NCBI GenBank assembly: GCA_016234405.1
Contig: JACRCC010000039.1
Location: 1-32,626, forward strand
Length of the DNA stretch: 32,626 nucleotides
Source of the DNA: Deltaproteobacteria bacterium
Lineage (GTDB): Bacteria > Desulfobacterota > GWC2-55-46
Reading direction: 5' to 3'
The notes beneath the pieces were generated by a model. It did not search any database. It was not told the origin of the DNA and worked only from the letters and a program-made list of their open reading frames with translations. The position numbers and the translations under genes are program-made. This document shows, in pieces, positions 2,227 through 18,508 of this stretch (positions within the stretch are counted from its first letter, which is position 1; every line of letters begins with the position of its first letter).

Positions 2227-3738
2227 TTACCGGTCTTCGGTTATTCCGTATTTGCTGAGTTTATACCTCATTGACCGGAAGGAAAGCCCGAGCAGTTCGG
2301 CGGCCTTTTTCTTGGCGCCTCCGGTCTTTTTGAGGGCATCGAGGATGGCGGTCTTCTCGAACTCAACGACGGTCTTTTCAAGGTCAAACACGTCCTTCCG
2401 TGGGATTACACCATTAAGGACATCGGGCAAAACGGCGATAACGCCTTGCGCCTCCGCCCCGTTAGCGCGCTCAGCGCCACTTTCCGATTTATGCGTTTGC
2501 GCGGTAATGTTGGTTTGTGCCCGAAAGTGGCGCTGGGCGCGCCCCGAAACTCCGGCGTTCGCCTTTTCCGTCAGATAAGACGGGATGCTGCCCATAACTA
2601 CACTATCCGAATTCTCCAGCGTAACCGCATGCTCGATGATATTTTCAAGCTCCCTGACGTTTCCGGAATAACCGTAATCGAGCAAAAACCTCATGGCCTC
2701 TTCGGAAAAACCCTTTATGTTCTTGCCGGCGCTTTTGTTATACTTCTCAAGAAAGTGCCTTGTGAGCGCCGGGATGTCCTCCTTGCGTTCGCGCAGGGGC
2801 GGCAATTTCAATCTTATCACGTTGAGCCTGTAGAAAAGGTCTTCCCTGAACCTGCCCGTCCTTACCTCGTCCTCCACGTCCCTGTTGGAGGCGGCGATGA
2901 GCCTGATGTCAACGGATATGTCCGCAGTGCCCCCCACCCTTCGAAAATTCCGCTCCTGTATGAAACGCAGTATCTTCACCTGAAGATGCACGGGCATCTC
3001 CGTAACCTCGTCGAGGAAGAGAGTCCCGTTGTCGGCCCTTTCCACGAGACCTTCCTTATTGGAGACCGCGCCGGTAAACGCCCCTTTTTGATGCCCAAAA
3101 AGCTCGCTCTCAAGGAGGTTCTCCGGTATCGCGCCGCAATTGAGCGCGACGAACGGCTCGTCTTTTCTGTCGCTCTCGTTATGTATGGCCCTTGCGGCAA
3201 GTTCCTTGCCCGTGCCGCTTTCCCCGGTTATGAAGATGTTCGTCTTTGATTTTGCGACGCTCATTATCAGCTTATAGGTCTCAAGCATCCGCGGGCTGCC
3301 CCCGATGAGGTCGCCAAAACCCGTCCTGCCCTTGAGTTCATCCTTGAGAAGTCTGTTTTCGCGCTCGAGGTGCTTGAGCCTGAGTGCGTTTTTTATATTG
3401 TGTTTGACCTCGACTACGTTGAAGGGTTTTGTGAAATAATCGTAGGCCCCGGCCTTCATGGCCTCGATGGCGGTTTCCACGGAGGCATAAGCGGTTATCA
3501 TTATAACAAGGGCCTCTGGGTTCGCCTCCCTGAGAGTTTTCAGGAACGAGACCCCGTCCATGCCCGGCATTTTTAGGTCGGTAATGACGAGGTCGTAGTC
3601 GTTAGTCTTGCACCAATCGAGCGCTGGGCCGGCGGAGGAAAAGGCAATGACTTCATAGCCCTCCTTCCTCAGCATTATCTCGAGGAACTCCCTCATGTCC
3701 TTTTCGTCGTCTACGATGACTATTTTAAACTTGTGCAT
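2227..3738 (-). CDS. pilR: PilR-type sigma-54-dependent response regulator
   Basis: This 503-residue NtrC-family activator has a receiver domain (residues 4-120, phosphoacceptor D54 in VITDLKMPG, K104) and a sigma-54-interacting AAA+ domain (about 143-370). Walker A is GESGTGKE 172-179 and the sigma-54 contact motif GAFTGA is 219-224. A Fis-type helix-turn-helix follows at about 462-498. It should activate sigma-54 promoters, classically pilA, when phosphorylated by PilS. The start at 3738 has AGGAG just upstream; an upstream start at 3792 would overlap pilS and lacks such a site. Residues 399-426, in the linker between the AAA+ and DNA-binding domains, are encoded by a copy of the palindromic repeat described at 2463-2544. 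The reading frame stays open across it. Confidence 0.93.
   Translation of the reverse strand: MHKFKIVIVDDEKDMREFLEIMLRKEGYEVIAFSSAGPALDWCKTNDYDLVITDLKMPGMDGVSFLKTLREANPEALVIMITAYASVETAIEAMKAGAYDYFTKPFNVVEVKHNIKNALRLKHLERENRLLKDELKGRTGFGDLIGGSPRMLETYKLIMSVAKSKTNIFITGESGTGKELAARAIHNESDRKDEPFVALNCGAIPENLLESELFGHQKGAFTGAVSNKEGLVERADNGTLFLDEVTEMPVHLQVKILRFIQERNFRRVGGTADISVDIRLIAASNRDVEDEVRTGRFREDLFYRLNVIRLKLPPLRERKEDIPALTRHFLEKYNKSAGKNIKGFSEEAMRFLLDYGYSGNVRELENIIEHAVTLENSDSVVMGSIPSYLTEKANAGVSGRAQRHFRAQTNITAQTHKSESGAERANGAEAQGVIAVLPDVLNGVIPRKDVFDLEKTVVEFEKTAILDALKKTGGAKKKAAELLGLSFRSMRYKLSKYGITEDR
2463..2544. repeat. Inverted-repeat element, copy A, inside pilR
   Basis: Left arm 2465-2484 and right arm 2523-2542 pair at 19 of 20 positions around a spacer of about 38 bases. 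The right arm reads AGTGGCGCTGGGCGCGCCCC, the same arm seen in the copies at 15368-15455 and 19431-19508. The element lies wholly within the pilR coding sequence and is read in frame as about 28 residues rich in A, R, Q, S and E, in the interdomain linker. This resembles the in-gene palindromic elements known from Rickettsia in architecture, not in sequence. Confidence 0.85.
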
Positions 3739-3766
3739 GTCTCTCCTGAGGTAATGGCCGCCTGTG

Positions 3767-5458
3767 TCAAACGCCGCCTTCAACGGCCTCATAAACCGGA
3801 AGCGTTATCATAAAGGCGCTGCCCCTGCCTGCGTTGCTTTTAACCTCTACCCTGCCGCCGTGGCTCTCAACCACCCTGTGAACGATGGCAAGGCCAAGCC
3901 CTGTGCCGGTATCCTTCGTCGAAAAAAACGGGTCGAATATCCTGTTTAATGCCTCCGGCGGTATGCCCTTGCCCGTGTCGGAGACCGTTATCAGGACGTT
4001 AGCCCCCAAAGGCGCGCTGGGCGGATCTCCCGTTGGAATGCAGTCGAAACGCGACTCTATATTCAAACTGCCGCCGCCATCCATGGCGTGTGAGGCGTTC
4101 AGAAAAAGGTTCCAAAAGACCTGACCGAGTTGCCTTGCGTCGCCGAACACATAAACGTCGGGCAAAACGGAGTTTGTTATCTCGATATCCGCGGCCTCCG
4201 GACAGTTTTTGAACATCTTTACGGTCTCGGCAATTACGCCGGAGAGGTTCACTATCTCCCTTTTACCCTTCGCCGGTCTTGCAAAAAGCAGGTAATCGCT
4301 TATCAGAGAATTGAGTCTTTCGGTCTCGCGCAGCACTATCTCCATAAGGTGCAAGTTTTCACCACCCAAGTCAAGTTCGTTTTTGAGCACCTGTATGGAG
4401 CCGCTGATGGACGCGAGCGGGTTACGTATCTCATGCGCGATGCCTACGGAGAGTTCTCCGAGGGCGCGCAGCCTGTCGTTCATCCGCAGCCGCTCCTCCA
4501 TTGATTTCTTCTCCGTCAGGTCGTTGAATATCACGATATACGACGCTTCATTGCCCCTGCCCTCCAATACGTTGTACTCGAGACAGACCTCGACGCCGCC
4601 TGTTTTCATAAAACACCTTTCCAAGCTGACGCCTTTGCGCAGCCTTGCGGGATCGTCTAATATCCCGGGGAATACCTCGCGCGCGTCCCTGCAATAGACA
4701 TCTCTCAGCGGATACCCGGTTATGACCTCGGCGCCCCTGTTGAAAGACGTTACCCTCAAATCCGAATCAAGCGTCATTATGCCGCTTGATATGTTCTCGA
4801 CGATATACCGGTTGAGGGTTTCGAGTTTGTCGTAATCGCCCTCCTTTTCAACGAGCTTCTTCTCGGCACGCGCGGTCCTCTCGACGAGATACCCGGCAAG
4901 ATACGCTATCGTGAAATAGGCCAGGACGTTCGTGGCAAGCGTCGTGAAGACGTCTTCCCATACAGGGTTAGCCCTCCCGCCGAAGACCTTGAATTTAAGC
5001 GAAAGCAACTTGAAAAAATCAAGATCAACGACGACCGCGTAAAACATGCTCGACATCGCCGCAGCGTAGTATCCGCCTCTTTTATCGAGGATGACGGCGC
5101 TGCCTATGATGGAGAGCGGATAGAGCACGTGCAGATAACTGTCCGCGCCGCCGGTAACGTAGACTATCATCGTGATAATAACGATATCCGCCGTAACCTG
5201 CGCGTAGGCGAAGAAGGTGAGGTTTTGCGCCCTATTCAGGGTTGCGGCGTAGAGTATGGTCAGGAGACCGATAACGACCACCACCGCATAGAGCGGATAG
5301 AAATTATACTGGCCCGCTGCGATGTCCCGGATTTGAAACCATGACGTTATGCCGAGGAAGGTAAGGGCAAGGGCGGCCCTCAAGACCATCATGGCCATCA
5401 GTCGTGCTTTCATCGAATCGCGTTGTGCGCGATCTTTATCTGCCGTAGTCTCGGCCAT
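3767..5458 (-). CDS. pilS: PilS-type sensor histidine kinase
   Basis: This 563-residue protein has about six membrane segments in residues 20-195, then a short coiled region and a PAS domain (about 210-315). The HisKA domain follows, with the phosphoacceptor H342 in GIAHEIRNP, and then the HATPase_c domain. That domain carries the N box at about 450-459, DTGKG at 494-498 and GTGLGLA at 518-524. The six-helix sensor without a large periplasmic domain is typical of PilS, which senses pilin in the membrane and phosphorylates PilR. The gene ends 28 bases before the pilR start, so the pair is one operon. The catalytic domain has an extra segment of about 12-15 residues (near 472-487, P/G-rich) just before the DTGKG strand. 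The assignment to PilS rather than another kinase rests on topology plus neighbours. Confidence 0.9.
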   Translation of the reverse strand: MAETTADKDRAQRDSMKARLMAMMVLRAALALTFLGITSWFQIRDIAAGQYNFYPLYAVVVVIGLLTILYAATLNRAQNLTFFAYAQVTADIVIITMIVYVTGGADSYLHVLYPLSIIGSAVILDKRGGYYAAAMSSMFYAVVVDLDFFKLLSLKFKVFGGRANPVWEDVFTTLATNVLAYFTIAYLAGYLVERTARAEKKLVEKEGDYDKLETLNRYIVENISSGIMTLDSDLRVTSFNRGAEVITGYPLRDVYCRDAREVFPGILDDPARLRKGVSLERCFMKTGGVEVCLEYNVLEGRGNEASYIVIFNDLTEKKSMEERLRMNDRLRALGELSVGIAHEIRNPLASISGSIQVLKNELDLGGENLHLMEIVLRETERLNSLISDYLLFARPAKGKREIVNLSGVIAETVKMFKNCPEAADIEITNSVLPDVYVFGDARQLGQVFWNLFLNASHAMDGGGSLNIESRFDCIPTGDPPSAPLGANVLITVSDTGKGIPPEALNRIFDPFFSTKDTGTGLGLAIVHRVVESHGGRVEVKSNAGRGSAFMITLPVYEAVEGGV

Positions 5459-5645: not shown

Positions 5646-6854
5646 CTAACCGGCGGCCGCGCCCGCGACCTGAAAGATTGGGAGATATAGGGCGATAACG
5701 AGACCTCCGACCACAACGCCGAGGAACGCCATGAGCATGGGCTCTATCAGGGCCGTGAGTCCGTCAACGGCCACGTCAACTTCCTCTTCATAAAAATCCG
5801 CGATCTTCGTAAGCATCGCGTCAAGCGCGCCGGTTTGTTCTCCGACCGCGATCATCTGGGTGACCATTCCGGGGAAGACCTTTGTCTCGATGAGCGGCTC
5901 GGCCAAGGTTTTGCCTTGTGAGAGGCTGTTGCGCGCCTGCATAATGGCCTCCATTATAATCATATTGCCCGCGGTCTTTGCCACTATCTCAAGGGCCTCG
6001 AGGATAGGCACGCCGCTTGACAACATTGTGCCCAGAGTCCTCGTGAAACGCGCAACCGCGGTTTTCCTGATGAGGTCGCCTACGACCGGGAGTCTCAGGA
6101 AGACGATGTCCATTATCCTCCTGCCCTTGGGCGTCTTATATGCCTGTTTAAGACCGATTATAATACCGGCGATTATCATGCCTATGAGCCACCACGCCTT
6201 TTTCATGGCGTTGCTCATGTTGACGACCATCTGCGTCGGCAGAGGCAGTGCCCTGCCCATGCCCTCGAACATGCCCTGGAATATCGGCACCACGAATACC
6301 AAGAGACCCGTAACGATGATGGCGGCGATGACGATGACCGCGGTCGGGTAAGTCATGGCGCTCTTTATCTTGCCCTTGAGTTTTTCGGATTTCTCCATGA
6401 AGCCTGAGAGCCTGCTTAAGATCGTATCGAGTATGCCGCCAATCTCACCGGCGGCAATAAGGTTGACGTAGAGGTCGTCGAAGGCCTTGGGGTGCTTGCG
6501 CAGTGCATCCGCGAAGGTCGAGCCTCCTTCAACCGCTCCCTTGACTTCAATCAATATCTTCTTGAACGCCGGGTTTTCCTGCTGGGAGCTGAGAATGTCG
6601 AGGCACTGGACGAGGGGGAGCCCGGCGTCTATCATAGTGGCGAACTGGCGGGAGAATATGACTACTTCCTTGGTTTTTACGCTGCCGCCGCCGAATGAAA
6701 TGCTAAATCCGCCCGCCTTCTTCTCGCTTATGGAAGAAGGTATCATGTTCTGGCGCTTGAGAGTTGCGGTGGCCTGAGCGAGGTTGGGGGCTTCTACCTC
6801 GCCTTTTTTCTCGCCGCCTCCCGGCACGGTCGCTGTATATACAAATGTCGGCAT
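5646..6854 (-). CDS. pilC: Type IV pilus inner-membrane platform protein PilC
   Basis: This 402-residue protein carries two T2SF (GspF/PilC) domains, at about residues 65-190 and 268-392. Each has a cytoplasmic helical bundle, with hydrophobic segments at about 172-192, 222-236 and 372-395. The repeated glycine-rich EIGGILD / EQTGALD motifs (137-143 and 339-345) are typical. PilC is the inner-membrane platform that couples PilB and PilT ATP hydrolysis to pilin polymerisation and retraction. It starts 3 bases after the pilT stop, with a GGGGAGG Shine-Dalgarno site inside the end of pilT, so translation is probably coupled. The length is normal for the family. Confidence 0.95.
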   Translation of the reverse strand: MPTFVYTATVPGGGEKKGEVEAPNLAQATATLKRQNMIPSSISEKKAGGFSISFGGGSVKTKEVVIFSRQFATMIDAGLPLVQCLDILSSQQENPAFKKILIEVKGAVEGGSTFADALRKHPKAFDDLYVNLIAAGEIGGILDTILSRLSGFMEKSEKLKGKIKSAMTYPTAVIVIAAIIVTGLLVFVVPIFQGMFEGMGRALPLPTQMVVNMSNAMKKAWWLIGMIIAGIIIGLKQAYKTPKGRRIMDIVFLRLPVVGDLIRKTAVARFTRTLGTMLSSGVPILEALEIVAKTAGNMIIMEAIMQARNSLSQGKTLAEPLIETKVFPGMVTQMIAVGEQTGALDAMLTKIADFYEEEVDVAVDGLTALIEPMLMAFLGVVVGGLVIALYLPIFQVAGAAAG

Positions 6855-6857
6855 ATC

Positions 6858-7997
6858 TTACGCAGGCCTCCCCGGATGCGCGCCAGGACCGCCCGGACGC
6901 GTTGCGCCGACGTTGCCGAACATCTGGCGCATCTCCTCAGGGTCCGAGGTCCTGCCCAACGCCTCGTCAAGCGTTATCATACGCCTCTGATAAAGGTTCA
7001 AAAAGCACTGGTTCATGGTCTGCATTCCGAATTTGGACTGACCCACCTGCATCTGGGAATATATCTGATGGACCTTGTCCTCCCTGATGAGGTTCCTTAT
7101 GGCCGAGTTAGGTATCATTATCTCAAGGGCGCAAACCCTGCCCTTGCCGTCCGCCTTCGTCAGAAGGAGCTGGGAGACGACGGCCTCGAGCACGAAGGAA
7201 AGCTGCGCCCTTATCTGCGACTGCTGGACCGACGGGAAGACGTCAACAATCCTATTGATGGTCTGCACGCAGGAGTTCGTGTGCAGCGTCGCAAAGCAAA
7301 GGTGTCCGGTCTCGGCTATGGTAAGGGCGGTCTCGATCGTCTCCATGTCGCGCAGCTCCCCCAAGAGCACGACGTCGGGGTCCTGCCTCAAGATGTATTT
7401 CAAGGCCTTCTTGAAGCTGTGCGTGTCGTAGCCGACCTCCCTCTGATTGACGAGGGCGGTCTTAGAGGCATGGAGATATTCGATAGGGTCTTCTATGGTT
7501 ATTATGTGCTCGGCCCTGGTTGTATTAACCCTGTCAATGATGGAGGCAAGCGTGGTGGATTTGCCGCTCCCGGTCGGGCCGGTAACGAGCACGAGACCGC
7601 GAGGCTTCTTGGCGATATCCTCGAGTATCGGGGGAAGGCCGAGTTCCTGAAAGGACTTAATCTGGAAGGGTATGGTCCTGAAGACCCCGGCCGTGGCGCC
7701 CCGCTGCACGAACATGTTTCCCCTGAAGCGGGAGAGGCCCTTCAACCCGAACGAAAAGTCCAGCTCGTTTTCCTCCTCGAACTTGTGCTTCTGCGTGTCC
7801 GCGAGGACCGAGTAGCAAAGCTGTTTCGTGTCAACTCCGGTCAAGGCGGCATAACCCTTGAGCGCCGTCAATTCACCGTGCACCCTCACCCTCGGCGCGG
7901 AACCCGTCGTCAGATGCAGGTCCGAGCCGTTTAGATCTATCATGGTCTTCAGGAGATCCTGAAGGCTTAACTTTTGCCCGCCGCCCTCAACCGCCAT
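6858..7997 (-). CDS. pilT: Type IV pilus retraction ATPase PilT
   Basis: This 379-residue hexameric ATPase has Walker A GPTGSGKS at 140-147, an Asp box around 163-172, Walker B near 206-216, a His box (GHLCFATLHTN, 231-241) and the PilT signature AIRNLIRE at 299-306. That last motif is required for retraction in studied PilT proteins and separates it from PilB. It would power pilus disassembly from the cytoplasmic side of PilC. The C-terminal tail (from about 364) is Gly/Pro-rich and is probably disordered. It lies between pilB and pilC in the same direction. Confidence 0.96.
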   Translation of the reverse strand: MAVEGGGQKLSLQDLLKTMIDLNGSDLHLTTGSAPRVRVHGELTALKGYAALTGVDTKQLCYSVLADTQKHKFEEENELDFSFGLKGLSRFRGNMFVQRGATAGVFRTIPFQIKSFQELGLPPILEDIAKKPRGLVLVTGPTGSGKSTTLASIIDRVNTTRAEHIITIEDPIEYLHASKTALVNQREVGYDTHSFKKALKYILRQDPDVVLLGELRDMETIETALTIAETGHLCFATLHTNSCVQTINRIVDVFPSVQQSQIRAQLSFVLEAVVSQLLLTKADGKGRVCALEIMIPNSAIRNLIREDKVHQIYSQMQVGQSKFGMQTMNQCFLNLYQRRMITLDEALGRTSDPEEMRQMFGNVGATRPGGPGAHPGRPA

Positions 7998-8086: not shown

Positions 8087-9790
8087 TCAGTCCGCCATTG
8101 TCACCCTCATTATCTCTTCAACCGAGGTTGTGCCTTCGCCTATCTTCGTTACGCCGCTCATCCTCAATGACTTCATCCCTTCTTTTATGGCGGCCCTTTT
8201 AAGCTCGGACGAAGACGCGCCGTTTAAGACCATCTCCTTAATCGAATCCGAGAACGGCATGACCTCGTATAACGCTATCCTGCCCTTGTATCCGCTCCCG
8301 TTGCACGTCGCGCAGCCCTTGCCCTTTGCGGGCTCCATGGTCTTTATCTGCTCAGGGGTCGCGCCGAGGTCGAGTAGTACCTTATCAGGCACCTCGAACT
8401 TTTCCTTACACTCCTTGCAGACCTTTCTCGCAAGCCTCTGCGCGAGTATGACGTTGCAGGCGGAGGATACGAGGAACGGCTCTATGCCCATGTTGAGAAG
8501 CCTGTTGACGGTGGACGGGGCGTCGTTAGTATGGAGCGTGGAGAGCACAAGGTGGCCCGTAAGCGCGGCCTTGACGGCTATCTCAGCCGTTTCGTAGTCT
8601 CGTATCTCTCCGACCATGATGATGTCCGGGTCTTGGCGCAGGAAGCTCCTTAGCGCCGCCGCGAAGTTTAGCCCGATGTCATCGTGCATCTGCACCTGAT
8701 TTATGCCCATGAGGTTGAATTCCACGGGGTCTTCGGCGGTGGAGATGTTCTCGGACATCTTATTTAAATCAGAGAGCGCGGAATAGAGCGTGGTGGTCTT
8801 GCCGGAACCCGTAGGCCCCGTTACAAGGCATATCCCCCACGGCTTATGGATGGCGTGCATGAAGTCATTGAGCGCCTTTTCCTCGAACCCGAGTTTCGTC
8901 ATGTCGAGCTGGAGGTTGCCCTTATCGAGAAGCCGCGTGCAGACCTTCTCGCCAAAAAGCGTGGGGAGAATGGAAACTCGGTAGTCCATCTCCTTATTTT
9001 TGCCGAGTTTCAGTTTTATCCTACCGTCCTGCGGGAGCCTCCTCTCTGCGATATCGAGATTGCTCATTATCTTTACCCTCGACACTATCGCGTTCTTCAA
9101 CTTCATCGGAGGCTTCATGACCTCCTGCAATACACCGTCCACCCTGTAGCGCACCCTGAAGGATTTTTCGTAAGGCTCTATGTGTATGTCGCTCGCCCCC
9201 TTCTTTATGGCGTCGGTGAGGATGAGGTTGACGAGCTTGACGACTGGCGCGTCCTCGACCGACTTTTTCAACTCGTTGACGTCTATCTCCTCCTCGTCCT
9301 TGACGAGTTCCATGTCGGTCTCATCGAAGTCCGAGAGCATTTCATCTAAACCGGCTTCTTCCTCGGCGGTCTCGTACTGTTTATCTATGGCCGCTTTTAT
9401 GGCAACCTCGGAGGCGATGAGCGGTTCGACGTTATAACCGGTGAGGAATTTGATATCGTCTATGGCGAATATGTTGGACGGATCCGCCATGGCAAGCACA
9501 AGCGTGGAGCCGGTGCGGCTCACGGGGATGACCTGATACTTCTTGGCTACGTCTTCTGGGATGAGCTTGGCAACCTCGTGGTCTATTTCCTGCGTGGCGA
9601 GATCAATCGTGGGGATGCCGTATTGCCTGCTTAAAAAAGCAGTGAGGTCGCTTTCGGATATGAAGCCGAGTTTAGTGAGGTTAAGCCCAAGCCTGCCGCC
9701 GCCCTGCCTCTGTTCGTCAACGGCCTTCTTGAGCTGCTCTGTAGTTATCAGCTTTTCTCTCAGTAAAAGTTCGCCTATCCTGTCTGCCAT
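8087..9790 (-). CDS. pilB: Type IV pilus extension ATPase PilB
   Basis: This 567-residue GspE/PilB-family ATPase has an N-terminal MshEN-type domain (about 1-145) and an acidic linker (about 143-180). The ATPase domain has Walker A GPTGSGKT at 325-332, Walker B at 387-398 and a His box GHLVLSTLHTN at 412-422. The zinc tetracysteine is CKEC 458-461 with CATC 493-496. It drives pilin polymerisation through PilC. MshEN domains often bind cyclic di-GMP; I did not verify every residue of that motif here. It is preceded by a good sigma-70-type promoter and is probably the first gene of the pilB-T-C-S-R unit, with an 89-base gap before pilT. Confidence 0.95.
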   Translation of the reverse strand: MADRIGELLLREKLITTEQLKKAVDEQRQGGGRLGLNLTKLGFISESDLTAFLSRQYGIPTIDLATQEIDHEVAKLIPEDVAKKYQVIPVSRTGSTLVLAMADPSNIFAIDDIKFLTGYNVEPLIASEVAIKAAIDKQYETAEEEAGLDEMLSDFDETDMELVKDEEEIDVNELKKSVEDAPVVKLVNLILTDAIKKGASDIHIEPYEKSFRVRYRVDGVLQEVMKPPMKLKNAIVSRVKIMSNLDIAERRLPQDGRIKLKLGKNKEMDYRVSILPTLFGEKVCTRLLDKGNLQLDMTKLGFEEKALNDFMHAIHKPWGICLVTGPTGSGKTTTLYSALSDLNKMSENISTAEDPVEFNLMGINQVQMHDDIGLNFAAALRSFLRQDPDIIMVGEIRDYETAEIAVKAALTGHLVLSTLHTNDAPSTVNRLLNMGIEPFLVSSACNVILAQRLARKVCKECKEKFEVPDKVLLDLGATPEQIKTMEPAKGKGCATCNGSGYKGRIALYEVMPFSDSIKEMVLNGASSSELKRAAIKEGMKSLRMSGVTKIGEGTTSVEEIMRVTMAD

Positions 9791-9835
9791 TGTCTCTCTT
9801 CAATGCTGTTTTTGTAAACAAACGCTTAATGATAA

Positions 9836-9864
9836 TATATATAAAAATTACGCCATTATGTCAA
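9836..9864 (-). promoter_or_regulatory. Probable sigma-70 promoter for pilB
   Basis: On the minus strand a perfect -35 TTGACA (9859-9864) is followed by 17 bases and a -10-like TATATA (9836-9841). Alternative -10 hexamers lie a few bases on in the same AT-rich run. It sits in the 79-base gap between the sensor-kinase stop and the pilB start, about 45 bases before the pilB ATG. Confidence 0.6.
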
Positions 9865-9869
9865 GGCAT

Positions 9870-9883
9870 TTAACGGCCGTTAA
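9870..9883. repeat. Palindrome TTAACGGCCGTTAA over the kinase stop codon
   Basis: A perfect 14-bp palindrome encodes the last residues (N-G-R) and the TAA stop of the sensor kinase. The same core (AACGGCCGTT) sits on the stop codons of rplR and rpoA, and just after those of rplF, rplE and rpsN. Confidence 0.75.
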
Positions 9884-11822
9884 TGCACAGGGGCAGAAAG
9901 ACTTTGAATGTCGCCCCGCCTTCAGGGACGTTTTCTACTTCGATCTTCCCGCCGTGCTCTTTTATTATGCCTTGAGAAATCGAAAGGCCCAGCCCGATAT
10001 TCAGGCCTCCGCCCTTTTGCTTGGTTGAAAAGAACGGGTCGAATATCTTGTCCTTTATCTCATCGGGCACCCCGGTGCCAGTGTCGCGTATCTCGACAAC
10101 GGCGAAACCACCCCCATCTTCCTGCGCGATGCGAGTCGAGACGTATATCTTACCTGTCCCTGCCACCGCGTCGCGCGCGTTCTTTATGATGTTGAGGAGC
10201 ACCTCCATGATCCTGCCCTTGTTGCCGAGGATCTTGGGCAGTTCCATGTCGAGGTCCTTGACTATCTCTATGGAGGTCGTTTTAATCTCGGATGCAAAGA
10301 GCGCAAGGGTGGCGTTCACCGATTCGTTGAGATAAACGGGGGTCAACTTGTCGCCGGCCGGTCTTGAGTACGTAAGCATGTCGAGTATGATGTATTTGGA
10401 ACGCACCGCCGCGTCTTTCATCGTCGCGAGCAGATGATAATTCGGATTCCCCTGCCCGAGCCTGTTCATCAGCGCCTCGGTTATGCTCAATATGCCCGCC
10501 AAGGGACTGTTGAGCTCATGGGCGATACCCGCCCCCATCTCTCCCAAAGAACTCATCTTTGCGGACTGTATGAGCTTTTGCTCCGAGTGTTTAAGCCTTG
10601 CGTAGGCGTCTTCAAGCTCCTTGAGAGACTTATTCAACTCAAAGGTTCTGTCTTTCACGGCGACTTCAAGCTCCGCGATGTATTTGTTTATGGTCTCGCT
10701 GAAGGACTTTCTTTCTGAGAGGTCGCGCCAGATTTCGAGCATGTATTTTTTACCGGCGACATCAACGACGGAGGCCGCCACCTCGACCGGGACGGTAAAC
10801 CCGTCTTTCCTCCTCACGAGCGCGTCCATCAGGTATCCCTTCCCGTCGAGTATCCACCTGAGGAATGACTGCGTGTATTCCTTTATCTTCTCGGACGGGT
10901 AGATGTCCGAGTCCCTCATGCCGAGGAATTCCGCCCTCGTAAAACCCAAAAGCTCGGTTGCCGCCTGATTGACCTCCACGAAGACGCCGGCCTCGATGTC
11001 CTTGAGGAGGATCGCGTCCGCCGCCATCTGCACGAGGCGAGAATGTTTTTCGTTCAGGCCGTTGAGCCTCTCGGTGGTTTTTGACAGAGACTCGGCCATT
11101 GAGTCGAATGCCCTGCCGAGGTCTTCAAGCTCGTCTCCGGTCGTGAGGCCCACGCGGTGGCCGAGGTCGCCTGATGCCAGCGCCACCGCCCCCCTCTTCA
11201 ACGACTCAAGCGGGGCGCGCAGCCTGCCGTTGACTATCGTCAGAAGCGCGGCGGACAGGACAAAAACAATGCCGCCGCCCCAAATATAAAAATTCTTCGC
11301 GTGCGAGGCGACGACCTCCTCGTATTTTTTCAGGGATATCTTGATGGATATGGCCCCGGCCGCCGCGCCTTTCGCCCCCGCATGGCACCCGGTGCATTCC
11401 TTTTTTAATATAAGCGGCATGACGTAGCGGGCCTGCGTGTAGCCTTCTTTCACGCGCTCGGTCTTCGACGCAGACACGCCTGCAAGCGCCTGAAAGTCGA
11501 GCGCGTCCGCCGGCGACTCGTTAGGCTCAACCCCATACTGCGCGTCAATCGGGGGGCCGTGTATGAGACGTATCTCATCCACCCCTTCGAGCCTTCTGAA
11601 ACGTTCAACGGTGGCGCGGTTCTCGGCGCCGCCGCCGCCGAGCCTCATCGAGGTATGTATCTGGTCGAAGAGCGCCGCCGAGAGCCTCTCGGCCTCGGAA
11701 AGACCGACGTTCTTGAGGAGAGCCGCGTTGGACACGGAGTCATAATAAAAGAGCGCGGCAATGCCGAGGATGAGTATGCCTCCGACGTAGACGTTGAACC
11801 TCTGTGATAGTTTTAGCCTCAT
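9870..11822 (-). CDS. Membrane sensor histidine kinase with a CxxCH haem-type sensor domain
   Basis: In this 650-residue protein one N-terminal membrane segment (about 11-28) precedes a periplasmic domain with CTGCH at 143-147, a c-type haem attachment motif. This arrangement resembles the DUF3365/Tll0287-like family. A second membrane segment (about 178-197) leads to HAMP (about 198-252), PAS (about 262-370) and a coiled coil. The HisKA H435 is in GIAHELNSP. The HATPase_c domain has the N box at 544-552, DTGTG at 580-584 and GLGLS at 610-614. It probably senses redox state or a diatomic gas and phosphorylates an unidentified partner; no response regulator lies beside it. It is just upstream of pilB but separated from it by a promoter. 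The haem and ligand are inferred from the motif. Confidence 0.85.
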   Translation of the reverse strand: MRLKLSQRFNVYVGGILILGIAALFYYDSVSNAALLKNVGLSEAERLSAALFDQIHTSMRLGGGGAENRATVERFRRLEGVDEIRLIHGPPIDAQYGVEPNESPADALDFQALAGVSASKTERVKEGYTQARYVMPLILKKECTGCHAGAKGAAAGAISIKISLKKYEEVVASHAKNFYIWGGGIVFVLSAALLTIVNGRLRAPLESLKRGAVALASGDLGHRVGLTTGDELEDLGRAFDSMAESLSKTTERLNGLNEKHSRLVQMAADAILLKDIEAGVFVEVNQAATELLGFTRAEFLGMRDSDIYPSEKIKEYTQSFLRWILDGKGYLMDALVRRKDGFTVPVEVAASVVDVAGKKYMLEIWRDLSERKSFSETINKYIAELEVAVKDRTFELNKSLKELEDAYARLKHSEQKLIQSAKMSSLGEMGAGIAHELNSPLAGILSITEALMNRLGQGNPNYHLLATMKDAAVRSKYIILDMLTYSRPAGDKLTPVYLNESVNATLALFASEIKTTSIEIVKDLDMELPKILGNKGRIMEVLLNIIKNARDAVAGTGKIYVSTRIAQEDGGGFAVVEIRDTGTGVPDEIKDKIFDPFFSTKQKGGGLNIGLGLSISQGIIKEHGGKIEVENVPEGGATFKVFLPLCINGR

Positions 11823-11908
11823 GGGTAATGCTCTAAAATTTTAGCCTGCGGATTTGGTTTGTCAACGGGCTTCGAGGGTGGTTACTGCGATTAAAAGTGC
11901 GGTGAGTT

Positions 11909-12484
11909 TTAAGCGCGGGGAGACAAATATGCCCTGAAAAAACCGATGAAATAATCAAGCCCCGACCAGACGGTGAGGATAAAGGCCGCGGCAAAAAGGG
12001 CCATGCCTACGAGGTGGAAGTCAATGCCGAAGAACTCGTAATGGATAAGGAGGGCTGTAATCGAGGATACCTGAGCAAAGGTCTTATATTTACCGAGGTT
12101 CGAGGCCGGGATTACAAGCCCCGCGTTAGAGGCCGCGGCGCGCAGACCAGTTACGGCAATCTCGCGGCTTATAATGACCGCTATCATCCACGCCGGCACG
12201 CGGCCGAGCGGAATAAGCATAATCAAAACCGTGGTTATGAGTATCTTATCCGCCACAGGGTCGAGGAATTGCCCCAGCGCGGTGACGGAGGCGCGCTTCC
12301 TTGCCAGATACCCGTCAAGCCAGTCCGTGGCGCACACGGCGGAAAAGACGGCCGCGGTAACGATGCTCATGGTTTGGCTGGGGGCGAACAAAAGCATCAC
12401 GACGAGCGCCGGCGCTGCGGCAATCCTTACAAACGACAGCACATTGGGGAGGTTGACGTTGCCGGCCTGCGATTGGCTCTGCAT
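11909..12484 (-). CDS. pgsA: CDP-diacylglycerol--glycerol-3-phosphate 3-phosphatidyltransferase
   Basis: This 191-residue polytopic membrane enzyme makes phosphatidylglycerol phosphate from CDP-diacylglycerol and glycerol-3-phosphate. The CDP-alcohol phosphotransferase signature D-x2-D-G-x2-A-R-x8-G-x3-D-x3-D is complete in the segment starting DWLDGYLARK and ending FLDPVAD. The order of hydrophobic segments and the length fit PgsA better than PssA or cardiolipin synthase, although the substrate cannot be proven from the motif alone. An AGG precedes the ATG by a T-run. It lies 30 bases after the lytic transglycosylase stop, likely in one transcript, and 86 bases before the kinase. Confidence 0.88.
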   Translation of the reverse strand: MQSQSQAGNVNLPNVLSFVRIAAAPALVVMLLFAPSQTMSIVTAAVFSAVCATDWLDGYLARKRASVTALGQFLDPVADKILITTVLIMLIPLGRVPAWMIAVIISREIAVTGLRAAASNAGLVIPASNLGKYKTFAQVSSITALLIHYEFFGIDFHLVGMALFAAAFILTVWSGLDYFIGFFRAYLSPRA

Positions 12485-12514
12485 AAAAAAAACCTGAAAA
12501 CCGTTGCCTATAGT

Positions 12515-13111
12515 TCAACCGTTGGAAGTCTTGTATAACTTATAGTAGAGCAGCACCCTTTTAACGTAGGCGCGGGTCTCCGGGTAAGGCGGGATGGCCC
12601 CCCATTTGAACACCGCGTTCTCACCCGCGTTGTATGCGGCTATGGCGAGCCTTATATCGGAAGAGAAGAGTTTGAGCAGCCTGCTTAGATGCCTGACCCC
12701 TCCCTCGATGTTCTCCGCAGGGTCGTGGATGTCTCTTACGCCGAGCCTTCTGGCGGTCTCGGGCAGGAGCTGCATCAAGCCCCTCGCGTCCTTCATTGAG
12801 ACCGCTTGAGCGTTGAAGTTCGACTCGGCCTTTACTACGGCCTTTGCAAGGGCAGGGTCAACGCCGTGCCTCATGGCCGCCTCCGTTATCATGTCGTCGT
12901 AGCCGCGGTAATAATACGTCTTCTTCGGCTGCGCCTTGGCTCCGGCCTCACGCATTATCCATTTGTACTTTGACGAGGTGGGGACGTTCGTGATGTGCAC
13001 GACGCCGGACTCGTCCACATACCTGTAGAGGTCGGCGTGCGCCGCGCCCGTTGCCAACGCCGCAACGACGGAGGTTATAAATAAAATTCGCTTAAAAAAT
13101 ATTTTCTTCAT
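12515..13111 (-). CDS. Secreted SLT-family lytic transglycosylase with DUF4124 domain
   Basis: The protein has 198 residues from the chosen ATG at 13111. A signal peptide (about 1-26: KK, hydrophobic core, AHA end) is followed by a short DUF4124-type segment (LYRYVDESGVVHITN, 28-42) and an SLT domain (about 75-190). The SLT domain has the catalytic glutamate E96 in VKAESNFN, GLMQLLPETA (111-120) and AAYNAGENAV (158-167). It should cleave peptidoglycan glycan strands in the periplasm, non-hydrolytically. An upstream in-frame start at 13201 would put 30 charged residues before the signal peptide and is rejected. Such enzymes often help envelope-spanning machines, so a link with the pilus is possible, but turnover is equally likely. 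Confidence 0.88.
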   Translation of the reverse strand: MKKIFFKRILFITSVVAALATGAAHADLYRYVDESGVVHITNVPTSSKYKWIMREAGAKAQPKKTYYYRGYDDMITEAAMRHGVDPALAKAVVKAESNFNAQAVSMKDARGLMQLLPETARRLGVRDIHDPAENIEGGVRHLSRLLKLFSSDIRLAIAAYNAGENAVFKWGAIPPYPETRAYVKRVLLYYKLYKTSNG

Positions 13112-13153
13112 ATCCTGATTCGGCGAGATACGGACGAAAGACCCCACAGGTAA

Positions 13154-13181
13154 AGTATACCGGGATTTAAACAGTCTACAA
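13154..13181 (-). promoter_or_regulatory. Possible promoter of the transglycosylase-pgsA unit
   Basis: On the minus strand TATACT (13154-13159) matches five of six -10 bases, with a weak -35 TTGTAG (13176-13181) at a 16-base spacing, about 43 bases before the start codon. It diverges from the nadB promoter in the same intergenic region. Confidence 0.4.
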
Positions 13182-13253
13182 CGCGGCGGCGTAAAGGGCA
13201 AGTTTTTTAAAATTCTCAGGGGGAAAACTCCGGAAATCCCCGCGCCAAGCCTG

Positions 13254-13282
13254 TTGACAAAAAATACCCGTTATCATAATGT
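13254..13282 (+). promoter_or_regulatory. Probable promoter of nadB
   Basis: A perfect TTGACA (13254-13259) is followed by CATAAT (13275-13280, spacer 15) or TAATGT (13277-13282, spacer 17). It lies about 45 bases before the nadB ATG. It is the only plus-strand promoter I can support. Confidence 0.5.
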
Positions 13283-13325
13283 AGAACGAAGGATGCGGGA
13301 TAGCGCGGTTCGGAGGCCGTTTGGA

Positions 13326-14930
13326 ATGGAGCACAGAAGCGATTTTTTGGTAATCGGAAGCGGTATCGCGGGTTTGAGTTTTGCCGTCAAGGCCGCCCAG
13401 TTTGGCGCGGTTTCGCTCATCACAAAGAGGGCGATACGGGAATCCGCGACGTTTTACGCGCAGGGCGGCATCGCTTCGGTGATAAGCCGCGAGGACACGT
13501 TCGAGGCGCACATAAAAGACACGATCGAGGCCGGTGCAGGATTGTGCAACCCCCGCATAGTCGAGATGTGCGTAAAAGACGGCCCAACGCGGATTGACGA
13601 GCTTATCGCCCTCGGGGTGAAATTCACGAAAAGGAACGCCGGCCACGGCTCTGAGCTTGACCTCGGCCGTGAAGGCGGCCACTCGAAAAGACGCATCGTC
13701 CACGCCCAAGACCTCACTGGGAGGGTCGTTGAAGACGCCCTCGTCGAGGCGGTATACTCCAACAAGAATATAACCGTCTTCGAAGACCACATCGCCGTAG
13801 ACCTCCTGTCCCACGCGAAGTTCATCGGGCAGACCCCCGAAGACGTCATCTGGGGCGCATACGCGCTCGCAAAAAACACCGGGGAGATTCACGCATTCAC
13901 CGCAAAGGCCACCATACTCGCCACGGGCGGCGCCGGTAAGGTCTATCTCTACACCAGCAACCCGGACGTCGCCACCGGCGACGGCATAGCGATGTCGTGG
14001 CGCGCCGGCGCGGAGATAAGGAACATGGAGTTCATCCAATTCCACCCGACGTGCCTCTACCACGCTAAGGCCAAAGGTTTTCTGATTTCCGAGGCGATAA
14101 GGGGCGAAGGCGGCGCGCTCATCCTCAAAGACGGCTCGCCTTTCATGAAAAGATACCACCCGTTGGCGGACCTCGCGCCAAGGGACACGGTTGCGCGCGC
14201 CATTGACTCCGAGCTTAAAAAAAGCGGCGACGAATGCGTGTATCTCGACATCAGTTCCAAGCCCGCCTCCTTTATAAAGGAACGTTTCCCCAACATATAC
14301 GGGAGGTGTCTCGAATTCGGCTTTGACATGACAAAAGATGCGATACCGGTCGTGCCGGCGGCGCACTATACCTGCGGCGGCGTCCATACCGATGAGAACG
14401 GCCTGACGAGCGTAAAGCGGCTCTATGCCATCGGTGAGACGGCCGAAACCGGACTGCACGGCGCAAACAGACTCGCCTCAAATTCGCTCCTCGAGTCCCT
14501 CGTCTTTGCCGAGAGGGCCTTCGTCCATTCAAAAGAGGCGATAAAAGGCTCAGGCAACGTCCCAGCCGTGCCGGCGTGGAAGACCTGCGGCGCGGTCATA
14601 AGCGACGAGGCTGTGGTGATAACGCAGAATTGGGAAGAGATACGGCGCTTCATGTGGAACTACGTCGGCATAGCAAGGTCGGAGAAGAGACTTGAGCGCG
14701 CAGAGAGGCGCATCGAGCTGCTGAAAAAAGAAATCAACGAATATTACTGGAACTTCAAAGTAACGAGCGACCTCGTGGAGTTGAGAAACATCGCGGCAGT
14801 CGCCGAGACGATAATACTCTCGGCGGCCATGAGAAAGGAATCCCGCGGACTACATTACAACATGGATTATCCGGAAAAAGACGATATTAACTTCATGAAG
14901 GACACGGCCGTCGTGTGGAAGGCTCAATAA
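13326..14930 (+). CDS. nadB: L-aspartate oxidase
   Basis: This 534-residue FAD enzyme oxidises L-aspartate to iminoaspartate, the first step of de novo NAD synthesis; NadA then condenses the product to quinolinate. The sequence shows the dinucleotide-binding GSGIAGL (11-17) and the succinate dehydrogenase/NadB family motifs FYAQGGIAS, HSKRRIVHAQD, ATGGAGKVY, EFIQFHPT, RGEGG, APRDTVARAI, TCGGVHTD and GLHGANRLASNS. The start at 13326 has GGAGG nine bases upstream; a TTG at 13254 falls inside the promoter and is rejected. nadA and nadC are not in the window. It is the only plus-strand gene here and converges on the HU gene. Confidence 0.96.
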   Translation: MEHRSDFLVIGSGIAGLSFAVKAAQFGAVSLITKRAIRESATFYAQGGIASVISREDTFEAHIKDTIEAGAGLCNPRIVEMCVKDGPTRIDELIALGVKFTKRNAGHGSELDLGREGGHSKRRIVHAQDLTGRVVEDALVEAVYSNKNITVFEDHIAVDLLSHAKFIGQTPEDVIWGAYALAKNTGEIHAFTAKATILATGGAGKVYLYTSNPDVATGDGIAMSWRAGAEIRNMEFIQFHPTCLYHAKAKGFLISEAIRGEGGALILKDGSPFMKRYHPLADLAPRDTVARAIDSELKKSGDECVYLDISSKPASFIKERFPNIYGRCLEFGFDMTKDAIPVVPAAHYTCGGVHTDENGLTSVKRLYAIGETAETGLHGANRLASNSLLESLVFAERAFVHSKEAIKGSGNVPAVPAWKTCGAVISDEAVVITQNWEEIRRFMWNYVGIARSEKRLERAERRIELLKKEINEYYWNFKVTSDLVELRNIAAVAETIILSAAMRKESRGLHYNMDYPEKDDINFMKDTAVVWKAQ

Positions 14931-14971
14931 AAAAAGGGGGCGGGAGGCGGTAAAAGATTTTCCCGCTTCCC
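14931..14971 (-). terminator. Terminator of the HU gene
   Basis: On the minus strand a 9-bp stem with one G-U pair (14942-14950 with 14963-14971) is followed by C-rich bases and then a run of T that overlaps the nadB stop. The polarity fits termination of the HU transcript between the two convergent genes. The run of bases between stem and T-tract is longer than ideal. Confidence 0.5.
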
Positions 14972-14977
14972 ACTCCC

Positions 14978-15259
14978 TTATTTAAGGACTGCGTCCTTAC
15001 ATGCCTTTGATATTCTAAACTTGACGGCCCTCTTTGCCGGTATCTGAATAGTCTCTCCTGTCCTTGGATTTCTGCCTTGACGCGCCGCGCGGTCTACTAA
15101 AACGAGTTTACCGATGCCGGGGACCGTGAACGAGTTGGCGGCCTCCTCGTAGGCAAGTTCCGTGAGGGCCTCAATCACCGCCCTGACCGTCTTTTTGTCA
15201 GCATTGGTCTTGGTCACGATCGCCTCTTCTATCTGAGACTTGGTCATCGCTTTATCCAT
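14978..15259 (-). CDS. HU/IHF-family DNA-binding protein
   Basis: This 93-residue protein is of the histone-like family, which forms dimers that bend DNA and compact the nucleoid. The N-terminal helices start TKSQIEEAI (6-14), the beta-arm region carries the signature GRNPRTGETIQIPA, and the end is FRISKACKDAV. The length is typical of HU (about 90). The start at 15259 has GGAGG eight bases upstream; an ATG four codons later is less well placed. It has its own promoter and lies after the alpha-operon terminator. HU versus a single IHF subunit cannot be decided firmly; the sequence looks more like HU. Confidence 0.92.
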   Translation of the reverse strand: MDKAMTKSQIEEAIVTKTNADKKTVRAVIEALTELAYEEAANSFTVPGIGKLVLVDRAARQGRNPRTGETIQIPAKRAVKFRISKACKDAVLK

Positions 15260-15317
15260 GTTCGCCGCCTCCGTGATTTTTTATTTTCAAAAAATTCGCC
15301 GATATAACCTGCCGTTA

Positions 15318-15346
15318 GGTATAGACCAAAAATAGTTGATTGTCAA
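15318..15346 (-). promoter_or_regulatory. Sigma-70 promoter of the HU gene
   Basis: On the minus strand a perfect TTGACA (15341-15346), a 17-base spacer and TATACC (15318-15323) lie about 58 bases before the HU start. The promoter begins shortly after the terminator hairpin at 15368-15455. Confidence 0.65.
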
Positions 15347-15360
15347 GACGCGCCGGCTCA

Positions 15361-15455
15361 AAGAAAAAAGGGCGCGCCCAGCGCCACTTGGGATTAACGT
15401 TGTTTGTTGGTTGCAAACAACTATGGTAAACCCAAGTGGCGCTGGGCGCGCCCTT
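15361..15455 (-). terminator. Alpha-operon terminator formed by inverted-repeat element, copy B
   Basis: Perfect 25-bp arms (15368-15392 and 15431-15455, core GGGCGCGCCCAGCGCCACTT) enclose a 38-base spacer that itself contains an 8-bp inverted repeat (15399-15406 with 15414-15421). On the minus strand the structure runs straight into TTTTTTCTTT, giving the form of a factor-independent terminator 39 bases after the rplQ stop. The same element occurs at 2463-2544 and 19431-19508 without a T-run, so this copy appears to have been recruited as a terminator. Confidence 0.75.
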
Positions 15456-15493
15456 CGCGTATTCAATTAAACGGATGCGACGCGCCGATATTA

Positions 15494-16030
15494 CTAACCT
15501 GATTTTGACCCGATGATCCCCTTCTTTGGAGCCGACTTTTTCTCAGACAACTTCTTAGCCTGACTTGCCTGTTTCGCGCCCGCATTCATCTTATGGGCCG
15601 GTCTCTCTTTTACGGAGGGGGTCTTCTTGATCCTTTGCTTGGCCGGCTTTACCGCAGCGGCATCGAGGGAAGGCGCGGAGCCTACGTACTCGATAAGCGC
15701 AATCTTGGCGTTGTCTCCGGGGCGCACACCCAACTTCAATATCCGGGTATATCCGCCGTTTCTCTCCTTAAACTGCGGGGCCAAATCGGCAAATAGCCTC
15801 GTAACCGCGTCCTTGCTGCGCAAAAAGGCCATGGCGCGCCTTCTTGCGGCCACGCTGCCGTCTTTGCCGAGCGTTATCATCCTCTCCGCATAGCGTCTCA
15901 ACGCCTTGGCCCTCGAAGTCGTGGTCTTGATCCTTCCGTGCCGGATAAGGTCGGAGGCCATGTTTGCGAGCACCGACCTCAGGTGGCTCCACGTCATGTC
16001 AAATCTCTTCTCGTCCCTATTGTGTCTCAT
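15494..16030 (-). CDS. rplQ: 50S ribosomal protein L17
   Basis: This 178-residue protein is longer than the usual 115-135. Residues 1-118 are the L17 fold near the exit of the peptide tunnel, with recognisable segments HLRSVLANMASDLI, HGRIKTTTSRAKALR and NGGYTRILKLGVRPGDNAKIA. The very N-terminus (MRHNRDEKRFDMTWSH) departs from the common RHRKxGRKL form. Residues from about 127 are a low-complexity Lys/Ala-rich tail that is probably unstructured and rRNA-binding. It is the last gene of the alpha operon, 96 bases after rpoA, and precedes the terminator hairpin. Confidence 0.93.
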   Translation of the reverse strand: MRHNRDEKRFDMTWSHLRSVLANMASDLIRHGRIKTTTSRAKALRRYAERMITLGKDGSVAARRRAMAFLRSKDAVTRLFADLAPQFKERNGGYTRILKLGVRPGDNAKIALIEYVGSAPSLDAAAVKPAKQRIKKTPSVKERPAHKMNAGAKQASQAKKLSEKKSAPKKGIIGSKSG

Positions 16031-16118
16031 TAACTGCCCCTTTTATTACGGATAGCGAAGCCCAAGCCTCGCGCCGCATCATGGCTGATAAAGTCAGGCC
16101 TGTTGGTCTGAGCTGCCA

Positions 16119-16129
16119 AACGGCCGTTA
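16119..16129. repeat. TAACGGCCGTT element over the rpoA stop codon
   Basis: On the minus strand the rpoA stop TAA begins the sequence TAACGGCCGTT. Next in the 96-base gap comes CAGCTCAG (16110-16117), and then AGGCCTGA (16094-16101), relatives of the TCAGGCC family found after infA and rpsQ. Confidence 0.6.
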
Positions 16130-17149
16130 TGCGGCGCCCTTCTGAGCCGAGTGCATGGTATCAAGCTCTTTTCTCGAAGGGAAATCGTCGAGTTTTACGC
16201 CAAAGTCCAGACCCATGCCGTGGAGCAGCTCTTTTATCTCGTTAAGGGACTTCCTGCCGAAGTTTTTCGTCCTGAGCATCTCCTGCTCGGATTTTTGCAC
16301 CATCTCGCCGATATATTTGATGTCCGCGTTTTTAAGGCAATTCGCGCTCCTAACGGACAACTCGAGTTCATCCACCGTCTTGAAAAGGTTTTCGTTGAAC
16401 TGCGGTTTTAAGGCGGACGCGCCCTCGAAAGACCTCTCAGGGGCCTCCTCGAAGGTTATAAAGAGACTCAACTGGTCTTTCAAAATCTTGGCGGCTATCG
16501 CCACTGCGCTTTGCGGGTCAATTGCGCCCGACGTCCACAACTCAAGCGCCAACTTGTCGTAGTCGGTCCTCTGCCCCACCCTCGCGTGCGTCACGTTGAA
16601 GTTAACGCGAGAAACGGGCTGGAATACGGAATCTATCGCTATGGTGCCGACCGGCGCGTCCGGCTGTTTATTCCTCTCCGAAGGGGCGTAACCCTTGCCG
16701 GTGTCGGCGCGCAGCTCCGCCTCGAACTTGGAGTCCTTGGAGACCGTGGCGATATGAAGCTCAGGATTCAATATCTCCACCGTTGAATCGCAGATGATAT
16801 CCCCGGCCCTCACCGAGCCGTCCGCGCCGCCGCCCTTTATACGCAGCGTCTTTGGGCCTTCCCCGTGAATCTTGAGCTTCACCTGCTTCAAGTTCAATAT
16901 GATGTCGGAGACGTCTTCCTTGACGCCCGGCACGGAGGTGAACTCGTGGAGCACCCCGTCGAATCTAACGGACGTTACTGCCGCGCCCTGAAGTGATGAG
17001 AGCAGAATACGTCTCAATGCATTGCCTATTGTAACCCCGAACCCGCGCTCAAGAGGCTCCGCGACGAACTTGCCGTAGGTGCCGGTTAGGGTATCCTTGT
17101 CGGCTTCAAGCTTTTTGGGTTTAATAAGGTCGCGCCAGTTTTTCTGCAT
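16127..17149 (-). CDS. rpoA: DNA-directed RNA polymerase subunit alpha
   Basis: This 340-residue protein has an N-terminal dimerisation domain (about 10-235), including the family segment LERGFGVTIGNALRRILLSS (33-52) and the loop with GTYGKFVAEP. The C-terminal domain (about 255-325) binds UP elements and activators, with the helix-hairpin-helix segment ELELSVRSANCLKN and GRKSLNEIKELL. It assembles the core polymerase. The start ATG at 17149 matches the family start. It lies between rpsD and rplQ as in most bacterial alpha operons, but with long gaps of 138 and 96 bases. Confidence 0.98.
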   Translation of the reverse strand: MQKNWRDLIKPKKLEADKDTLTGTYGKFVAEPLERGFGVTIGNALRRILLSSLQGAAVTSVRFDGVLHEFTSVPGVKEDVSDIILNLKQVKLKIHGEGPKTLRIKGGGADGSVRAGDIICDSTVEILNPELHIATVSKDSKFEAELRADTGKGYAPSERNKQPDAPVGTIAIDSVFQPVSRVNFNVTHARVGQRTDYDKLALELWTSGAIDPQSAVAIAAKILKDQLSLFITFEEAPERSFEGASALKPQFNENLFKTVDELELSVRSANCLKNADIKYIGEMVQKSEQEMLRTKNFGRKSLNEIKELLHGMGLDFGVKLDDFPSRKELDTMHSAQKGAA

Positions 17150-17215
17150 TTGGCCCCCGATATTTTAAAGAAGTTTTTTATTAATATTGCCGTGCCGGTT
17201 AGGTGCGTCCCGCCG

Positions 17216-17272
17216 GCGGCCGTTTACTTATAACCGGCCGCGGGGTCAACCGCCTACGGGGAGAATCCCCCC
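17216..17272. repeat. Two adjacent hairpins between rpsD and rpoA
   Basis: GCGGCCG (17216-17222) pairs with CGGCCGC (17235-17241), with GTT/AAC extending the stem. A second hairpin is formed by GGGGA (17258-17262) with TCCCC (17266-17270). Both lie in the 138-base gap upstream of rpoA on the transcript. They may be repeats or intercistronic control structures; there is no T-run to make them terminators. Confidence 0.45.
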
Positions 17273-17287
17273 GAAGGGCGATTTACA

Positions 17288-17914
17288 TTATTTGGAATAT
17301 AGCTCGACTACGAGCTGCTCGTTCATCGGGACGGTAACGTCATCCCTTCTCGGCGCCCTCACTACCGTGCCCTTTAGATGTTCCTTATCGAGCATGAGCC
17401 ACTCCGGCACGCCTCTTCTTTCCGCAGATTTGATGTTCGCGGCTATCCGCGCGTCCTTTTTTCTCTTCTCGGCAAGCTCGACGCTGTCCGAGGCCTTGAG
17501 CCTGTAAGACGGGATATCCACCTTTTTTCCGTTTATCCTGAAATGTCCGTGCGTCACCATCAAGCGCGCCTCTTTCCTGCACCCGGCAAAACCCATGCGG
17601 TAAACCACGTTGTCCATGCGCCTTTCAAGAAGGGTGACAAGGTTTTCTCCTGTGATGCCCTTGGCCCTGTCGGCGTCCTTGAACGTGAGCCTGAACTGGG
17701 ATTCCATCAATCCGTAGACCCTCTTGAGTTTTTGCTTTTCACGGAGCTGCAGGGCGTATTCGGAGACCTTACCCCTTGACTGCCCGTGCTGTCCGGGGCC
17801 GTAGCTCCTGCGCTCGAACGCACATTTGTCCGTGTAACAGCGGTCGGCCTTGAAAAAAAGCTTCATGCCCTCGCGTCTGCAAATCTTACATACCGATTCG
17901 ATATACCTTGCCAA
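17288..17914 (-). CDS. rpsD: 30S ribosomal protein S4
   Basis: This 208-residue primary binder of the 16S rRNA 5' domain is often also a translational repressor of the alpha operon. The zinc ligands C9, C12, C26 and C31 mark the zinc-containing form. The S4 RNA-binding domain is near [22 protein letters not shown], about residues 92-160. I chose a TTG start at 17914 because AGGAGG lies seven bases upstream, and because the resulting [16 protein letters not shown] and the 208 residues match the family. An ATG at 17974 would add 20 basic residues not seen in S4 proteins. Confidence 0.96.
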
Positions 17915-18009
17915 CTTCTCCCTCCTTCTGAGCACATTCGCAACGCTTCCACGTAAACTCCGCGCACCCATCAAATCATTTTATTTGGGTCCGCCGCGCT
18001 TGACCCAAC

Positions 18010-18384: not shown

Positions 18385-18508
18385 CTATTATAACGCGCCT
18401 CCCGTTCTTTGTCCGTCCGTTGCCTTGTTTCAGAAATTGAAAATATTTATAATATCATGAAAACGGTGTTTTTTCACCATTAAAATCGCATCCCGGTATC
18501 AGGGACAG

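Follow-up and report, generated by a model that had tools for sequence, protein, structure and literature searches.

The question raised by this locus is what is sensed by a histidine kinase with an apparent haem-attachment motif encoded directly before the gene of a pilus motor, and to which partner it signals. The window, i.e., the whole stretch of 32,626 nucleotides that was analysed, encodes on its minus strand a haem-type sensor histidine kinase of 650 amino acids with an ATG start (positions 9870..11822). The kinase domains, the promoter-like site and the pil genes given below with their positions lie on this strand. The kinase has a predicted periplasmic sensor domain (residues about 32-176; 11295..11729) between two hydrophobic stretches (residues ~8-31 and ~177-203, from Kyte-Doolittle values only), and the predicted haem-attachment motif CTGCH (residues 143-147; 11382..11396) falls between these stretches. 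The domains that follow were all identified with Pfam: a HAMP domain (residues 198-247; 11082..11231; 46.5 bits for a cut-off of 25), a cytoplasmic PAS domain of the PAS_9 type (residues 269-370; 10713..11018), a HisKA domain with His435 in the sequence AHELNSPL (residues 426-487; 10362..10547) and HATPase_c (residues 535-645; 9888..10220). The phospho-acceptor histidine and the ATP-binding motifs are intact in the sequence. Shuffling the kinase protein 2000 times never yielded a CXXCH motif. Because full-length relatives, 48-60% identical, are present at 23 other loci, the open reading frame is a genuine gene rather than a product of chance. An orthologue-like kinase was also found in a deltaproteobacterial contig from groundwater (JACRCM010000130.1, locus L131), the only one among the 80 matches listed for generic kinase patterns. 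A promoter-like site, TTGACA-16-TAAAAT, lies upstream of the kinase gene (11838..11865); it comes from a consensus scan only, which returned 5 sites in the region for 1.3 expected.

Downstream of the kinase gene, separated by a gap of 79 bp (9791..9869), is pilB, which encodes the pilus extension ATPase with an MshEN domain (8087..9790; TIGR02538, 802.1 bits for a cut-off of 675.65). It is followed on the same strand by pilT (6858..7997), pilC (5646..6854; PF00482, the best NCBIfam model being T4PiliAsmPilCMyx, whose cut-off of 700 bits is missed with 551), pilS, encoding a kinase with a 6TM_PilS domain (3767..5458), and pilR, encoding a receiver, a sigma-54 AAA+ domain and HTH_8 (2227..3792); pgsA lies upstream of the kinase gene. 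The sequence-only reading of this DNA had described a kinase with a periplasmic CTGCH, HAMP and PAS directly before pilB, and PilS/PilR four genes on. The open reading frame, the Pfam domains and the 79-bp gap agree with the former, and pilS is indeed the fourth gene after the kinase gene. Two observations lie outside the present question. The window PilB also matches the c-di-GMP-binding model NF053729 in addition to MshEN, and the motor may thus also be under c-di-GMP control. Past nadB, positions 14978-31998 carry a Bac_DNA_binding gene, rpoA and a long ribosomal protein cluster with secY and adenylate kinase, an ordinary arrangement.

We compared the sensor domain with known structures by using a profile of 32 sequences from 29 genomes, the window included; five of these sequences are short or second homologues and not the orthologous kinase. 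The profile matched 3b42, the sensor domain of GSU0935, with an E-value of 2.7e-5 and 3b47, that of GSU0582, with an E-value of 6.1e-4. The top of the ranking was occupied by a cytochrome c555 trimer (E 8.2e-8), which owes its place to three repeats of the CXXCH stretch at 10.8 bits each. CXXCH is present in 31 of the 32 sensor sequences; Met59 (codon at 11646..11648), Cys146 and His147 are found in all 32 and Cys143 in 31. In the alignment with 3b42, the CXXCH motif is paired with chain residues 106-110; with an offset of 34, these provide Cys140, Cys143 and His144 in the numbering of the review PMC8396549. Met59 is paired with chain residue 26, which is Met60 in that numbering. The window Met59 and His147 therefore align with the haem ligands Met60 and His144 of GSU0935, and Met59 is the predicted distal ligand. 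According to the same review, Met60 is the sixth haem ligand of GSU0935, CO and NO displace it from the reduced haem, and a change of redox state alters the coordination. In the preprint PMC12889525, a signalling-type sCache_heme protein without an axial Cys is credited with NO-sensor properties.

The window protein alone remains below the Pfam cut-offs of PF11845 (15.9 against 24.1 bits) and PF21563 (17.4 against 27 bits), each of which is matched by 28 of the 32 sensor sequences at E up to 1; because these cut-offs are missed, we refer to the sensor as sCache_heme-like and divergent, and not as a curated member. A weak AlphaFold model built with 4 sequences (mean pLDDT 67.4) places residues 143-147 between strands 130-137 and 156-163, and the best match in a Foldseek search with it was a WalK-YycH model (E 6.4e-4), followed by 3b47, which did not reach significance (E 0.093). 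Taken together, the kinase sensor looks like a divergent sCache_heme domain of the Tll0287/GSU0935 type and, judging from its conserved residues, very probably binds haem. Cytochrome c assembly proteins (PF01578) are above cut-off at three places in the window's genome. An earlier proposal had been a haem-type kinase that senses redox state or a gas; the grouping with c-type haem sensors, axial-ligand residues included, supports the haem-type part at the sequence level, whereas redox or NO as the signal is what we infer by analogy. With the two models tested, no source of NO was found in the window's genome: NrfA had no match, and no COX1-family protein was over cut-off, only a COX1 fragment being present under it. 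The sCache_heme (DUF3365/Tll0287-like) sensors GSU0935 and GSU0582 of Geobacter sulfurreducens likewise have a periplasmic domain with CXXCH; however, they are chemotaxis receptors, whereas the window protein is a kinase encoded next to pilB and, taken alone, is under the Pfam cut-offs. Two side observations concern the distribution of this sensor. In one kinase, the sole case among the 24 aligned (locus L051 of genome G012), RRECH replaces CXXCH, with loss of the first haem Cys and retention of Met59 and His147. Four proteins of 426-437 amino acids (L072, L075, L076 and L078, from G044, G043, G041 and G032, respectively) share the haem-type sensor and are not the orthologous kinase.

Linkage of the kinase gene to pilB in relatives had been set beforehand as a test able to refute the proposed pilus connection, and it held: pilB lies within 1 kb downstream of the kinase gene, on the same strand, in 25 of the 27 genomes whose contig extends far enough, gaps being measured between match ends. 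The exceptions are G003, in which a receiver-only regulator gene follows and no pilB comes after it, and G039, in which pilB is 4.3 kb away with a second kinase gene and the regulator gene between. This count covers loci with a complete orthologue and sensor at the place counted; it leaves out those cut by a contig end (L012, L050, L053, L057, L063, L070, L071 and L073), those with no such orthologue (L118, L123, L126 and L078), those that are not the orthologue (L072, L075, L076, L077 and L079), and L055 and L069, which duplicate L129 and L130. The gene pgsA lies upstream of the kinase gene in 24 of the 27 genomes, one of the remaining three being cut by the contig end. As pgsA is conserved as well, part of the linkage between kinase gene and pilB is inherited gene order. 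A link between the kinase and the pilus is supported at the gene-neighbourhood level. As an observation apart, positions 9498-15687 of locus L065 (G039) hold two consecutive kinase genes, with cores from the same clade, ahead of the regulator gene and pilB; the first-named sensor type, with haem, occurs in one of the kinases, and HAMP, PAS and GAF domains occur in the other.

The absence of an adjacent response regulator, which had been pointed out before, is true of the window locus but not of most relatives: in 22 of the 25 pilB-linked genomes, a receiver-only regulator that we call RR-A is encoded between the kinase and pilB, in the place of the 79-bp gap. It is missing from this position in the window's genome (G000), G006 and G040. 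In the window's genome, which is 97.76% complete, no RR-A was found at all; the closest regulator belongs to another group, RR-B, and the next best match is 38% identical. RR-B is the sister clade of RR-A, is encoded elsewhere and is separated from it with a FastTree support of 0.998. Scanning of four regulators, two of each clade, revealed a receiver domain only, and all 62 regulators retain the acceptor Asp (30 of 30 RR-A and 32 of 32 RR-B). The RR-B of the window's genome has 139 amino acids (G000:C41:17480-17899, minus strand), its assignment being based on the tree and on its neighbours. That it might be a relocated RR-A was considered and rejected. The protein falls in the RR-B clade; at a diagnostic position that is Phe in all 25 RR-A sequences outside five f4-type ones, it has the Tyr found in 32 of 32 RR-B; and its gene has the thioredoxin-like and PsiE neighbours that RR-B has in L093 and L095. 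In all five RR-B loci scanned (L092, which is that of the window's genome, L093, L094, L095 and L096), a Thioredoxin_2 gene stands beside RR-B; a PsiE gene is found in L092, L093 and L095, the last two of which also have a Y-family DNA polymerase gene, and these neighbourhoods consist of genes without a pilus link. The missing regulator of the window locus looks like a secondary loss. A FastTree phylogeny of the kinases unites the window protein with those of G006, G010 and G018 (support 0.983) and, among these, places G006 next to the other two (support 0.74). Because G010 and G018 keep RR-A, the losses in the window's genome and in G006 may be separate events.

We then asked which regulators accompany the kinase across genomes. 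In a collection of 59 genomes, 48 of which belong to the same order (own included), the kinase core was detected in 36 and RR-A/B in 38 at the thresholds used, own genome included. The kinase core has a single match in 33 of its 36 genomes and two in G011, G016 and G039, and two or more regulators were matched in 23 of the 38 regulator-bearing genomes. In the 18 genomes of the same order that belong to other families, kinase core and RR-A/B coincide without exception, 8 genomes having both and 10 neither; of 20,000 shuffles made within families, 23 reproduced this pattern. The 11 genomes outside the order have neither. RR-A/B without a kinase core occur in G001, which is 89% complete, and in G020, where the kinase runs into the contig end. 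At E up to 1e-32, with the 14 first-look candidates per genome scored, RR-A/B was found in 7 of 297 genomes of the phylum, all 7 from the same order. PilS, in contrast, is present in 55 of the 59 genomes, including all 18 of the other families. As the kinase core co-varies with RR-A/B and PilS is present regardless, the likely partners are RR-A and RR-B and not PilR; on this comparative evidence we hold the pairing with good confidence. The clade's kinase core also occurs with other sensors, in G032, where core and regulator are not beside pilB, and in G037; these cases indicate that haem input is one of several placed before this core.

From these data we propose that the kinase is the sensor of a two-component system which, in this family, belongs to the pilB-pilT-pilC-pilS-pilR cluster. 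By homology, Cys143/Cys146 and His147 would hold a periplasmic c-type haem, whose exchangeable sixth ligand would be Met59; oxidation, or NO or CO on the reduced haem, would displace Met59 and change the sensor domain. The signal would pass through HAMP and the cytoplasmic PAS to the HisKA/HATPase core, presumed active from its intact motifs, and the kinase would phosphorylate both RR-A, beside pilB in most relatives, and RR-B, encoded elsewhere, as linkage and co-occurrence suggest. Because RR-A lacks an output domain and is usually encoded beside pilB, the simplest assumption is that it targets a protein directly: phospho-RR-A may act in a CheY-like manner by binding a component of the pilus motor, PilB in the first place, as its position and the precedent of the PilB-binding regulator EmvR suggest. 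That RR-A acts on the pilus machine is, by this analogy, a little short of an even bet. In the window's genome, the kinase would probably signal via RR-B, a rerouting that we consider somewhat likely, and direct control of the pilus may be weakened or lost; because the RR-A step is missing there, pilus control is better supported in the relatives than in the window's genome. The whole explanation (haem kinase, RR-A and RR-B as partners, CheY-like action of RR-A on the pilus and rerouting here) has, in our estimate, an even chance of being right.

The alternative that survives best is that the kinase works with RR-A and RR-B as a relay or phosphate-sink pair with a non-pilus output, and that the place before pilB is inherited order. 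The conserved pgsA, the neighbours of RR-B and the frequency of genomes with two or more regulators fit this reading, as does the description of PilH of the Pil-Chp system as a possible phosphate sink in PMC11656802. Against it, RR-A keeps its position ahead of pilB in genomes with an inverted or unseen pgsA (G033, G039, G037 and G044, the contig of the last beginning at RR-A), and in G037 and G039 it does so even behind another kinase of the clade, that of G037 having another sensor make-up. We consider it unlikely. The system could also be decaying in the window's lineage, RR-A being gone and the kinase, without a pilus role, being on its way out or serving only RR-B. In favour of this, RR-A is absent from the window's genome, where RR-B is the best remaining regulator, and neither G006 nor G040 has it at the place beside pilB, but the kinase has an intact reading frame, haem motif and catalytic motifs and keeps its place before pilB, which makes decay rather improbable. 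The suggestion of the sequence-only reading that the kinase feeds PilR, as a second input controlling pilin transcription through sigma-54, has PilR in the same cluster and the lack of an adjoining regulator in the window's genome in its favour, but it is set aside as the main route and very doubtful, since pilR is adjoined by the gene of its own kinase PilS, which occurs with or without the haem-type kinase (10 of the 18 other-family genomes lack the core), and since RR-A stands beside the kinase in most relatives. Cross-talk to PilR could still occur where RR-A is lost; the kinase would not primarily feed PilR.

The preferred circuit, in which the haem kinase signals through RR-A and RR-B, resembles known systems in part. 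As described in PMC11973254, EmvR of Xanthomonas oryzae pv. oryzicola is a single-domain regulator that binds PilB and lowers its ATPase activity by about 40%, with the kinase ColS upstream; the likeness is one of description. RR-A shares with it a receiver only with the acceptor Asp, PilB binding being only predicted for RR-A; EmvR, however, is an orphan by gene place, whereas the RR-A gene stands between pilB and the gene of its presumed kinase. The Pil-Chp system of Pseudomonas aeruginosa also ties one kinase and two single-domain regulators, PilG and PilH, to pili, but according to PMC11656802 its kinase ChpA works with the chemoreceptor PilJ, whereas the kinase of the window is a membrane protein with its own predicted haem-type domain. 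With PilS-PilR the kinase shares the gene cluster and the HisKA type; PilS, however, contains a 6TM domain and is paired with a sigma-54 regulator, whereas the haem-type kinase does not match PF25323 (6TM_PilS), which the window pilS does, and goes with receiver-only regulators. No description of a haem sensor kinase at pilB was found in a literature search of titles and abstract starts with partial coverage, including few subscription journals, and the main text of the 2026 preprint on the sensor family (PMC12889525) does not contain the words pilus or pili. The parts are of known kinds, and the arrangement appears to be new.

Our more specific proposal, which remains tentative, is a one-kinase, two-regulator circuit in which a redox- or NO-switched periplasmic c-type haem with Met59 and His147 would directly gate the pilus motor via the CheY-like RR-A, with an RR-B branch elsewhere, and in which lineages like that of the window would have dropped the pilus branch and retained the other. 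What appeared to be an orphan kinase thereby becomes a testable circuit, the comparison with relatives naming the missing partner, and the genomes that have no RR-A are natural tests of the need for RR-A in pilus control. If true, a covalently bound haem would let bacteria extend or halt their pili in direct response to redox potential or NO. The presence of a haem-type kinase at pilB suggests, from the sequence comparisons, that redox state or NO can steer pili.
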